The notes beneath the pieces were generated by a model. That model was not told the DNA's origin, ran no database searches, and saw only the letters and a program-made list of their open reading frames with translations. Shown here piece by piece: positions 541 to 22,566 of a stretch of DNA of 32,743 bases. The position numbers were made by a program, and so were the translations under genes. Every line of letters starts with the position of its first letter. The first letter of the stretch is position 1. Source of the DNA: a virus; the IMG/VR virus record IMGVR_UViG_3300009418_005694, positions 1 to 32,743 of that record, one strand, 5' to 3'.

Positions 541-776
541 GCTTGTTGATTTTGACTGTTGATGGAGTTTAATGACATTAGAAAGTCCCGAATATTCTGA
601 AAAGTAGAATCCACTAGAATACGTGTGCGCTGGTCATCAGCAAAATCACTACGGACGAATGCGGAATGTAAAAGACAAAGGTCTTTGGTGTACTCGATTA
701 CTGTTTGTCTTCTAAGAAGCTCATCTACAGCTTCAATTGTCTTAGATGTTTTTGAATTCTCGTTGTGTGTCTGCAT
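537..776 (-). CDS. small hypothetical protein upstream of the antirepressor
   Basis: 79 residues from the ATG at 776 (MQTHNENSKTSKTIEAVDEL...). A longer reading frame to 818 exists, but the 776 start lies exactly at the edge of a 16-bp inverted repeat and leaves a normal leader. The protein is charged and helical, with the stretch AVDELLRRQTVIEYTKDLCLLHSAFVRS split by short loops, and has no recognised domain. Its stop overlaps the antirepressor start by four bases, so the two form one operon. Such partners of antirepressors can be regulatory subunits, but that is inference from position only. Confidence 0.65.
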   Translation of the reverse strand: MQTHNENSKTSKTIEAVDELLRRQTVIEYTKDLCLLHSAFVRSDFADDQRTRILVDSTFQNIRDFLMSLNSINSQNQQA

Positions 777-862
777 AACAATGAGTTTAAAATACCTATG
801 GGAGCTGCAGACACACAACGAAACGAAGTAGTAAGTGGTCTTCCTCCACTCTCTCCCATAGG
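760..862 (-). promoter_or_regulatory. interleaved inverted repeats: candidate pseudoknot leader RNA
   Basis: Two perfect inverted repeats are interleaved. In transcript order: A = 862-853, B = 821-806, C = 804-795, D = 775-760. A (CCTATGGGAG) pairs with C over 10 bp. B (TCGTTGTGTGTCTGCA) pairs with D over 16 bp. B and C are separated by one base. This is the order of an H-type pseudoknot, with connecting loops of about 31 nt (A to B) and 19 nt (C to D). D begins at the second base of the ATG at 776, so forming B:D would occlude initiation. A small AGTGG/CCACT hairpin lies in the first loop. The base pairing is read directly from the sequence; the folding and function are inference. Confidence 0.6.
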
Positions 863-889
863 CTGTATTAATAAATTGTTTTTGAAACT

Positions 890-897
890 CAAAAGTA
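890..897 (-). promoter_or_regulatory. candidate promoter -7 box (TACTTTTG)
   Basis: The minus strand reads TACTTTTG, a full match to the Bacteroidota -7 consensus TAnnTTTG, in the gap between the BRCT gene and the antirepressor operon. A TTG lies about 24 bases upstream, slightly longer than the usual spacing. Transcription starting just downstream would include the whole 760-862 structure in the leader. Confidence 0.4.
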
Positions 898-933
898 CCA
901 TTTCGTGATGTATCTGCCTTTCAAAGATATAAA

Positions 934-1476
934 TTATTCCAATATCTTTCTCAAATCCACTTCATCAATAATTTTTACGCCAAACTCTTGGGCATTCTCA
1001 TACTTACGCGGACCATGGTCTTCTCCAATTATCAGATAATCTGTCCGCTCATTCACAGTAGTATCAATGTCGGCTCCTAATGACCAAATCAATTCTGCTA
1101 AAACATTCCTATCGGGATAGTCCTCAAATTCTCCTGTGATAACAACTTTCTTTTTGTATAATAGATGGCCGTTGTCTTCCATGTCCTTTATTGGCTGGTA
1201 GTATTTACCATCTATTTTACGGGCTCGGAACACTGAATAATCATCATAATGAACCCCAGTAGCCTTACCTCTTTTTTTTGATTTTATTTTTTGTCCGTTT
1301 TCAGCATAATCCTTTAATGATTCATTTATCATCCTTTCGTTGTGCAAGTCTGATTCAAGGGATTTTATTTTATTGTCCTTGAATTTAATCTTATCCTTCA
1401 GACTGGATATTTTAAAATAGGAACGAATAGAATTGAGGAAAAGAATGAACAAAACAAATGCCCAGAACCAAAACAT
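934..1476 (-). CDS. membrane-anchored BRCT-domain protein
   Basis: 180 residues. Residues 1-17 (MFWFWAFVLFILFLNSI) form one hydrophobic N-terminal membrane segment. Residues about 22-62 are a Lys/Glu-rich coiled coil, followed by a basic linker (KSKKRGKATG). The C-terminus from about 108 is a BRCT fold: KKVVITGEF, then a helix (NVLAELIWSLGADI), then the TDYLIIGE strand and a final KIIDEVDLRKIL helix. BRCT domains are typical of NAD-dependent DNA ligases and DNA-damage proteins, where they bind DNA or phosphopeptides. Anchoring one at the membrane is unusual. The protein is predicted to be an inner-membrane protein with the BRCT domain in the cytoplasm. Its role in the phage is unknown. Confidence 0.72.
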   Translation of the reverse strand: MFWFWAFVLFILFLNSIRSYFKISSLKDKIKFKDNKIKSLESDLHNERMINESLKDYAENGQKIKSKKRGKATGVHYDDYSVFRARKIDGKYYQPIKDMEDNGHLLYKKKVVITGEFEDYPDRNVLAELIWSLGADIDTTVNERTDYLIIGEDHGPRKYENAQEFGVKIIDEVDLRKILE

Positions 1477-4396: not shown

Positions 4397-6777
4397 TACT
4401 GGTGTGTAATTTCATATTCACCGCTAGTAGTGTTCTTATAATAGAACCCCTCCCCTATAGCGGCCAAGGCAGTTGCATTATCCGCATAGCTTGGGCAGTT
4501 TACATCTTGGGTCTTAAATTTTAAAACAGGGGTGACAGCGTAGTTAAATGTAATGTTGTCCGTCTCGCATCCGGTCATATTTATGGACAACCCGGTTATT
4601 GCTGTACCGGATGTGACATTAATGGTCTTTGCTGTATCACTTATGAATTTGCAATTTTTAAAATTCATAGTTAGAGTACCACCAACATTAGCGTAACCAT
4701 TATTTAAAATTCTCAAATTGGATAGGTCGGTCATATCAAAAACACAATCTGTAAAATTCAATACCATATCACCGGCGTCACTTGTAACCCTTCTATTGAG
4801 ACTTAATTCAGAATTGACAAATTCCGAACCAATAAAATTGGCCGTATAATCGGGCAATGTTGTATGTGAAATTCCATCGCCCCAAGATTTTACGATGTTT
4901 TCGAACTTTGTTCCGTTAAAATTTTGGGTATAAACAGTACTTGTGCTCCATGGGGTCCCGATACTTCCGCTAGGATCACCGTAATAATGTAAAGAAGGTA
5001 CATTTTCAGATTCTATATCAAATCTCATAGATGTGTTCCTTACGTTTATCCTTGCCCTAGAATCGTTGTTACGTGTGTCAATTGTGTAAAGTTCCCAAGT
5101 GGATAAATTGGCCCTTTCTTCGATGTAGTCATCAAACCTTATAACATCAACAACATCTACTGGAGTTTTAAAAGGCTCTACAAAGTCATGGTGGTAATTA
5201 TTAGCTGAAATCACATTACCCTCCAATCTTACATTTGTATTGATGTAAGTGTTGCCGTCGATATAAATAGTGTTGTTCTTGTTGTTTACTGCCCTAGCAT
5301 ACATTTGGGCATCTATAAACAAGTTATTGGCTACCTTTGCCGTTTTCTCTGAATATGAATTTGAATAAGTAACAGAAAGACCACCGCCTATATCGGTCCC
5401 TGCAACAAAAGTATTACCCATAACCTCCGCATACTTACAGTTAAGTACTGATGAATCGTATTGTATGTCTTGACAAACGTTGTTATTGAATATCAATGTC
5501 TGTGCTGCCGGTGTCAAAAAAGCGTGACCGCAATCCTCAAAACGATTACCTACAATTTTAACGAAATCAGGCATCCCATCTTCTATATTGATGGCAAATT
5601 GAGTGGTGTCATCATAGCTCATCCATCCATATTTATATGTGATCGCCTTGCCAATTGTATGGAACACGCAATCCATAATAGTTGTATTGTTCGAAACCCC
5701 TGCAATGCCTCCCCTCATATTGTTGTAGAATTTACTGTTGGCTACCAATAAGTTTCTGGGAGTACCAGAGGTAAGAGCTACAGAGCTATAGTTGACTGTT
5801 GGGTCTGTCCTTTCGTCGTCATAGGCCACAAACCTAACTTTTGTACAGTTTGCAGGTAAATAGTTCAACTTGTTCTGAATGCTCCAATCAGAAGTTATAA
5901 ACTCATCCGAGGAAGTATAATAAAAAACTCTGACCAATGAATTTCTGAAAGGAATTTCTCTGGTAAAACCCCAACCAATTATCGAAAATGAATTATCAAC
6001 AAGAGTAATCCCTGTTGTCATATCCAGCATGGCTGTCCTATATGAACCTGTTTCGACAATTTCAGCACCAGAAGCATCCAAACCTCCGGCATAGAAAGTC
6101 GAAATAGTCTTATCGTTATACCCTTTATAGGTTATAGCCAAAGGTTCACATCTAAATCCATGTCCTTCATAGTTGTCTATTTTTATGTTTTGCGAATCCA
6201 CTTCTATCACAATCCCATAGCAAGGGATATCCCCTGCCTCACCTTCGACCCATGATCTCATGTAGTTATCTCCACGAAGTTCCAAGTTGATTATACTTAT
6301 ATTTTCAGTTTGCCTTAATGAAATCATCTTAAACCCAAGATCGTAGACATCATTGGCGGTTGCATCATACGGATTCCTATTGACCGAATCGTATATGATA
6401 AAAAAAGTTGCACCATTAAAGTCAATGGTCATATCTTCAATATTACTGATTATGGCACAATACCCTCCACTACCCGCCGCAACTGTAGAGCTTCCCGCAT
6501 TTGCCGTCATTGGATAACTGCCCTTTTCCAAAACCACCATTGAATATCCTTCTTCGTGGGCCTTTTCTATTGCCGCTGAAAGATTCAATCCATTATTGTA
6601 CGCATCTTGATATTCTTGGGATGTAAACGGTGATTCCGCGGTTTCATAATCCATTTTCACCAATCCTATTTCACTAGCTTTAAGGAATTTTGCGTTTTCA
6701 GGAAGAAACCTGTCCGGAACTTGGGAATATCCAAACTGAAAAGCTATGAAGGCTACTAAAAATACTATCTTTTTCAT
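4396..6777 (-). CDS. secreted right-handed beta-helix tailspike-like protein
   Basis: 793 residues from the ATG at 6777. The N-terminus MKKIVFLVAFIAFQFGYSQ is a clear Bacteroidota-type Sec signal peptide. A reading frame to 6816 would add 13 residues in front of it and is unlikely. The rest is a long right-handed parallel beta-helix built of short strand repeats with Asn/Asp turns, for example MTIDFNGATFFI, ISIINLELRGDNY, NIKIDNYEGHGF, LVANSKFYNNMRGGIAGVSN and NTIYIDGNTYINTN. This is the fold of phage tailspikes and polysaccharide lyases. Catalytic residues cannot be assigned. It lies after two fibre-like genes and probably acts on host surface glycan. A signal peptide on a virion-like protein is odd. 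Confidence 0.72.
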   Translation of the reverse strand: MKKIVFLVAFIAFQFGYSQVPDRFLPENAKFLKASEIGLVKMDYETAESPFTSQEYQDAYNNGLNLSAAIEKAHEEGYSMVVLEKGSYPMTANAGSSTVAAGSGGYCAIISNIEDMTIDFNGATFFIIYDSVNRNPYDATANDVYDLGFKMISLRQTENISIINLELRGDNYMRSWVEGEAGDIPCYGIVIEVDSQNIKIDNYEGHGFRCEPLAITYKGYNDKTISTFYAGGLDASGAEIVETGSYRTAMLDMTTGITLVDNSFSIIGWGFTREIPFRNSLVRVFYYTSSDEFITSDWSIQNKLNYLPANCTKVRFVAYDDERTDPTVNYSSVALTSGTPRNLLVANSKFYNNMRGGIAGVSNNTTIMDCVFHTIGKAITYKYGWMSYDDTTQFAINIEDGMPDFVKIVGNRFEDCGHAFLTPAAQTLIFNNNVCQDIQYDSSVLNCKYAEVMGNTFVAGTDIGGGLSVTYSNSYSEKTAKVANNLFIDAQMYARAVNNKNNTIYIDGNTYINTNVRLEGNVISANNYHHDFVEPFKTPVDVVDVIRFDDYIEERANLSTWELYTIDTRNNDSRARINVRNTSMRFDIESENVPSLHYYGDPSGSIGTPWSTSTVYTQNFNGTKFENIVKSWGDGISHTTLPDYTANFIGSEFVNSELSLNRRVTSDAGDMVLNFTDCVFDMTDLSNLRILNNGYANVGGTLTMNFKNCKFISDTAKTINVTSGTAITGLSINMTGCETDNITFNYAVTPVLKFKTQDVNCPSYADNATALAAIGEGFYYKNTTSGEYEITHQ

Positions 6778-22120: not shown

Positions 22121-22158
22121 TTCTGATTTCCTCCCTATTTGAGAATACCCTATTTTTT

Positions 22159-22396
22159 GTTGGAATCCGTTCCAACGTTCCAACAAATCACATATATTAT
22201 TGATTATCAGTATATTAAACAATATATGACTGTTGGAACGTGTTGGAACGCCCCCTTAATTTGTTGGAACCAAAAAACACCAGTCCAACACGTTCCAACA
22301 CTTTTTAAAAGAAAAATCAAGGTATAATAATATTTAACTATCTATATATTAGGTAGTTATAAAATATATTGATTGAATTGTTGGAACGTTGGAACG
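22159..22396. repeat. GTTGGAACG iteron-like cluster (candidate origin or operator)
   Basis: Perfect 9-mers GTTGGAACG lie at 22232-22240, 22242-22250, 22380-22388 and 22388-22396 (plus), and on the minus strand at 22168-22176, 22176-22184 and 22291-22299. Near-matches are at 22159-22167 and 22263-22271. Tandem pairs are 8 or 10 bases apart, and pairs face each other across two very AT-rich stretches (22185-22230 and 22305-22379). Repeated 9-mers around AT-rich DNA are the layout of iteron origins. The 22042-22636 stretch otherwise contains only the hairpin, promoter candidate and terminator listed. Confidence 0.65.
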
Positions 22397-22521
22397 GATG
22401 AACCGAAAATACCACCCATTTTCGTCCTAAAAAGTTTTTTTGAAAAGGGGGTGCGGGGGAAATGACATATCCAGCACTCTTTATTTTTGGTTTTGTTGAT
22501 GGAATGAAATAGGAAATCCCC

Positions 22522-22566
22522 ACCATGTTCCAACATTGGCCATTCGGCCAAGCTGGAACACCATGG
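22522..22566. repeat. large imperfect inverted repeat with GGAAC arms
   Basis: The arms read CCATGTTCCAACATTGGCC and, across a 4-nt centre, GGCCAAGCTGGAACACCATGG. They pair with two mismatches and a 2-base bulge. The centre TTGGCC ATTC GGCCAA is perfect. The outer part contains variants of the 9-mer repeat, so it may bind the same factor or form a cruciform. Confidence 0.5.

Follow-up and report, generated by a model that had tools for sequence, protein, structure and literature searches.

The leader of a minus-strand operon in a virus record 32,743 nt long (hereafter the window) probably holds a c4-type antisense RNA together with its own targets, ahead of an antirepressor operon. The RNA would be processed from the leader, act in trans and block translation of a small ORF and of the antirepressor gene. 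The antisense stretch is complementary to two target copies that flank the structured RNA; antisense and targets change together across loci, and the stems covary in relatives. Processing, trans action, repression and translational coupling are attributed to the window by analogy with phage P1.

Arrangement of the leader and its operon

Two perfect inverted repeats lie in the leader, both exactly where the preliminary description had placed them. The shorter one joins 795-804 (CCTATGGGAG) to 853-862 (CTCCCATAGG) over 10 nt, an exact match when the letters were read directly, and the longer one joins 760-775 to 806-821 over 16 nt with 100% complementarity. On the minus strand, the arms follow one another as A (862-853), B (821-806), C (804-795) and D (775-760), with A paired to C and B to D, and the loops between them measure 31, 1 and 19 nt, in agreement with the interleaved order described before. 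With its flanks, the B:D helix grows to 18 bp (823-806 with 775-758). The 16-bp arm lies well outside chance expectation: in 2000 dinucleotide shuffles of window 700-960, the longest perfect inverted repeat measured 14 nt and none reached 16 nt. Inverted repeats of at least 10 nt occurred in 53 of the 2000 shuffles (2.7%); the 10-bp arm, taken alone, is less striking, and the equivalent stem covaries in relatives. Arm D has an additional imperfect copy upstream, at 917-898 (GCAGATACATCACGAAATGG), whose 20-nt pairing includes one mismatch and some G-U pairs.

All parts of the operon lie on the minus strand. The putative -7 box TATCTTTG (929-922) has the form TAnnTTTG, which we take to be a Bacteroidetes-type promoter, and the transcript start would be at about 915-920. 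The preliminary description had named transcripts starting downstream of 862, in which half of the structure would be missing, as evidence against its reading; the predicted promoter lies upstream of 862, and the transcript would therefore include the whole structure. The upstream target copy (917-898), comparable to a1/b1, falls at the predicted 5' end of the transcript and pairs with the antisense. The body of the candidate c4-like antisense RNA (862-795) is supported by the fold of the isolated RNA, by a position matching that of the leader in the related locus L004 and by spacer similarity. The body begins with the 5' strand of stem P1 (862-853), the perfect complement of the 3' strand (804-795), and P1 covaries in five relatives. 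Hairpin P2 (851-833, GAGUGG-AGGAAGA-CCACUU) appears in the isolated-RNA fold and is also found in c4-2 and the relatives. The antisense stretch (823-806, TTTCGTTGTGTGTCTGCA) is complementary to both the downstream and the upstream target.

The downstream target (775-758), comparable to a2/b2, begins inside the ATG at 776-774. The preliminary description had placed this ATG at the start of the antirepressor operon; the start codon is indeed the target, and it opens a 79-aa ORF (776-537), the antirepressor being the second gene. The 79-aa ORF is the positional equivalent of P1 icd and is 54% identical to an ORF in L004, and Pfam and PHROG searches with it gave no match. The antirepressor (540-1) carries a P22_AR_N domain (E = 1.9e-33) and belongs to phrog_524 (Ant), and its start overlaps the stop of the 79-aa ORF by 4 nt (537-540).

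The isolated RNA is predicted to fold into P1 and P2 (-25.9 kcal/mol), with the antisense mostly outside strong helices and no evident P3. The antisense is one contiguous stretch rather than two separate loops a' and b', and the 5' end of P1 reads ACAG-CCUAUGGG, without the GG of the GGW reported as the RNase P signature of phage P1 c4. The duplex of the antisense with the downstream target comprises 18 bp and reaches -31.3 kcal/mol, and that with the upstream copy reaches -26.7 kcal/mol and beats every swapped partner. For a nascent transcript that ends with P1, the most stable predicted structure has the antisense bound to the upstream copy (-34.2), whereas in that of a longer transcript the antisense is bound in cis to the downstream target. 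In the full transcript, P1 loses to the long cis hairpin in the ViennaRNA prediction. A search of the minus strand within 400-1600 revealed no terminator-like site.

Relatives and the co-change of antisense, targets and stems

Relatives of the antirepressor were found in L005 (69% identity), L004 (60%) and Polaribacter phage Leef_1 (58-59%). In L004, a structured leader occupies the position equivalent to that in the window, L005 carries a structured RNA directly after ant and ahead of a 53-aa ORF, and Leef_1 repeats the design of the window two genes ahead of ant. Against the Rfam c4-2 model, the leader of L005 scored 30.6 bits (E = 0.0057) and that of L004 21.8 bits (E = 0.025), both below the cut-off of 41. 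In L004, in L005 and in many c4-2 loci, a box like that of the window likewise stands ahead of the upstream target copy. The 5' spacer, defined as the stretch between the first ATG and P1, resembles in the window that of L005 (TGA-TTTCAAAAACAA; 0 of 2000 shuffles equally good) and that of L004 (TTTATTAATA; 4 of 2000). This similarity amounts to moderate evidence, as the shuffles were mononucleotide and the sequence is AT-rich. Judging by the synteny with L004 and the similarity of the spacers, the window RNA probably descends from the c4-2 type.

About 50 loci, compared side by side, share one plan, which consists of a promoter-like box, a short target, the structured RNA and a second target copy at the start codon of an ORF. 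Within the structured RNA, the antisense follows P2 and precedes the 3' strand of P1. Its letters and those of the targets vary from locus to locus, but their complementarity is kept. As a control, each antisense was paired with the flanks of other loci in a set of 24 c4-2-like loci, partly related to each other. The upstream pairing averaged -19.1 kcal/mol with the own flank against -10.4 kcal/mol with swapped flanks, and the downstream pairing -17.1 against -9.6 kcal/mol; for both, none of 20,000 permutations was as good. A non-redundant set of 17 loci, evaluated with another score, gave the same result. Weak downstream targets were seen in L004 (-9.7, with a swapped mean of -8.7), L045 and L071.

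The stems were compared in an alignment of five phage-type leaders, which leaves out the window. Over P1, P2 and P3, 8 of the 18 pairs were double-changed, a count that 0 of 500 shuffles reached, and 92% of the cells were paired, compared with 31-46% in slid controls. Compensatory changes in related leaders, which the preliminary description had named as the check on its stems, were thus present in the antisense-target pairing of the 24 and 17 loci and in the stems of these five leaders.

Model searches did not assign the window leader to a described family. At the gathering threshold, its comparison with Rfam gave only chance matches, and a permissive scan likewise gave only chance matches, mostly of miRNA models on the long hairpin. 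In the window record the C4 model found nothing at E ≤ 10, and it matched none of the relatives either. Our own covariance model R1, built from five relatives with phage-type c4-2-like leaders, recovered its training loci and missed both the window leader (matches up to E = 10) and Leef_1. Scanning viral contigs for the P2 motif pattern of L004 and L005 returned chance matches, except L013, which is the L005 contig. A DNA search of phage records for the window leader found none, and homology between the 79-aa ORF and the c4-2-associated ORFs was not detectable. In a search of host genomes, the antirepressor family was very rare, and the one locus read was without such a leader. The exact antisense was also sought in viral contigs; its single match lies inside a gene and is chance-like.

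Strong c4-2 matches over the cut-off were found in Bacteroidia in 2 of 395 genomes class-wide, in 25 of 150 genomes of one genus and in 6 of 249 of its family. Genomes of the genus of G104 carry up to eight c4-2 copies each (L026, L041-L045 and many others), every copy having its own antisense and two targets. Most of these copies precede an ORF of 72-77 aa without a Pfam match, and no antirepressor lies near the copies in the loci read, such as L026 and L065. In L071 (335-1093), a c4-2-like RNA is followed immediately, with no small ORF between them, by the gene for a 219-aa Bro-N protein (Pfam E = 3.8e-25), a gene of the antirepressor type. In L004, the sequence TGCAGACATACAGCGG follows ant at 4853-4870 and resembles the window target TGCAGACACACAACGA (13/16), whereas the antisense of L004 itself differs.

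A short leader ORF (901-725, minus strand) begins where the upstream target copy ends. Comparable hydrophobic starts of leader ORFs are found in L004, L005 and L079 (MVLLSFKNNLLI, MYFNLKSLLI, MIFKNKILTI, MIINNIFLTI). A conserved leader peptide encoded from 901 was considered and is suggestive in the phage-type loci; since in many c4-2 loci no ATG follows the upstream copy, the copy and not the ORF is the conserved feature.

Comparison with known systems and alternative readings

The preliminary description knew of no match for this structure; its layout resembles that of phage P1 c4 and Rfam c4-2, although not by covariance model. In the P1 record AF234172, the annotated order is a1 and b1 (putative targets), c4 RNA, a2, b2, icd and ant1, with icd at 421-642 and ant1 from 639, a 4-nt overlap, and with a2 and b2 annotated for repression of icd-ant translation. 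In the P1 letters, a1 and a2 are both TTGACAG, and the complement CTGTCAA lies within c4. The c4 RNA of about 77 nt is excised by RNase P, and its loops a' and b' bind the mRNA (PMC5320573, PMC8198154) of the c4-icd-ant operon (PMC8198154). The window shares with P1/P7 c4 (RF01695, immI operon c4-icd-ant1/2) the order of upstream targets, an RNA of about 70-77 nt, downstream targets at the translation start, a small ORF, a 4-nt overlap and the antirepressor. It differs in having an antisense that forms a single 18-nt stretch where c4 has two boxes of 7-8 nt (a' and b'), a target that covers the ATG and the first codons where the P1 targets lie 5' of them, an antirepressor of the P22_AR_N type in a Bacteroidetes phage, and no covariance-model match.

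With c4-2 (RF02944, C4 clan), the window has in common P1 and P2, a duplicated target and the occurrence in Bacteroidetes, and the relatives at an equivalent place (L004) or beside ant (L005) match this family weakly. The window RNA itself has no model match, no evident P3 and a longer antisense. Furthermore, most canonical c4-2 loci precede an ORF of about 77 aa, without an antirepressor in the loci read, whereas the window has one. The duplication of the target, once after the promoter box and once at the start codon, is a regularity observed here, outside the Rfam definition, and is present in the window. The best reading is that the window RNA is a divergent variant of the known c4 kind and works like c4. 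We do not file it in the Rfam families because the C4, c4-2 and R1 models miss it, P3 is not evident, and the two boxes and the GG are absent.

The preliminary description had proposed a pseudoknot switch over the start of the operon, set by RNA folding, a ligand, a trans-acting RNA or a protein. As a self-contained pseudoknot or ligand switch in cis, P1 and the helix between antisense and start codon would form an H-type pseudoknot within one molecule and shut the start site with no separate RNA. Both helices are compatible, as had been claimed, the loops of 31, 1 and 19 nt accommodate them, and the strong pairing (-31.3 kcal/mol) covers the ATG. Nevertheless, we consider it unlikely that this is the main function because the antisense also pairs with the second, upstream copy, a regular element of c4-2-like loci that a pseudoknot leaves unexplained. 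It likewise leaves unexplained the match of the relatives to an antisense RNA family, and the P1 RNA, which was studied with an equivalent layout, works in trans (PMC8198154). The A:C pairing is better read as P1 and the B:D pairing as that of antisense and target. The proposal of RNA-level control over the antirepressor operon is upheld by the c4-type reading, and a trans-acting RNA, one of the options listed at the time, would fit it by analogy with P1. Even less probable is a purely DNA-level element, namely an operator or an invertible or integration site: a perfect 16-bp inverted repeat close to a promoter could serve as the binding site of a protein or recombinase, but the antisense and its two target copies co-change in loci with unrelated letters and the stems covary, which leaves this reading scarcely credible.

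Three other phage RNAs share parts of the design. The CI RNA of phage P4 is processed from a leader and is complementary to copies upstream and downstream of it, seqA and seqC (PMC4825925). Pairing of the window RNA with seqA-like and seqC-like copies could by the same logic cause premature transcription termination instead of a direct ribosome block, and the upstream copy fits well. CI, however, targets transcription termination of replication genes and has no antirepressor, whereas the window operon carries one, as c4 systems do; its downstream target lies on the start codon and not merely in the leader, where the minus strand shows no terminator-like site, so that attenuation appears improbable here. 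In Gifsy-1, the leader RNA IsrK, the small ORF orf45 and the coupled gene anrP form an arrangement comparable to that of the window, with action in cis and in trans (PMC4825925). By that model, a short RNA would bind its own long transcript, open the start of the small ORF and turn on the antirepressor through translational coupling. IsrK activates, pairs mainly inside orf45 and ends in its short form at its own terminator, of which none is seen in the window leader; moreover, the window antisense covers the start codon itself and should block initiation, which makes activation very improbable. Finally, phage P22 controls an antirepressor with the same N-terminal domain by the antisense RNA sar, but sar is transcribed from the opposite strand and the window antisense is part of the same-strand leader.

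Proposed mechanism and further observations

Under the c4-type reading, a single promoter at about 925 would produce a transcript with the upstream copy, the structured RNA, the downstream target, the 79-aa ORF and the antirepressor. The c4-type RNA, of about 70 nt (roughly 863-794, minus strand) with P1, P2 and an exposed antisense, would probably be excised from the leader and then accumulate. Acting in trans, its antisense would bind newly made transcripts around the start codon and block translation of the small ORF, and hence that of the antirepressor via the 4-nt stop/start overlap. Blocking the antirepressor would maintain the prophage state and immunity to phages with the same antisense. 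Action in cis through the pseudoknot may occur in addition to trans action.

The role of the upstream copy is a matter of speculation; it may keep the antisense occupied before the nascent transcript is cut. A wider proposal, which we put forward tentatively and regard as rather doubtful, is that the duplicated target is a built-in timer of c4, c4-2 and P4 CI RNAs. As long as the nascent transcript is uncut, its 5' copy would sequester the antisense, and the first transcripts could express the antirepressor, and only after processing has removed this copy would the RNA be an active repressor. Antisense and both targets would drift together, so that Bacteroidetes phages as well as multi-copy host modules would acquire new immunity specificities.

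On the c4-type reading, the immunity layout studied in two coliphages would now extend to a Bacteroidetes phage with a P22-type antirepressor. For the c4-2 RNAs, common in the one Bacteroidetes genus counted above, it would supply a function and targets that can be put to the test. Because a second copy recurs at the start of the transcript, the a1/b1 sites of P1, annotated as putative, look like a general feature.

Two observations concern other parts of the window. At 934-1476, the minus strand encodes a small protein whose N-terminus is hydrophobic and which carries a BRCT domain (Pfam 3e-08); it is related to the C-terminal part of phage NAD-dependent ligases, and no ligase domain was found in it. 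In a gene-poor stretch at 22156-22535, GTTGGAAC repeats are clustered, some direct and some inverted, for example 22165-22190 with 22374-22399 (26 nt, 96% complementary). These repeats are iteron- or operator-like and possibly mark an origin.
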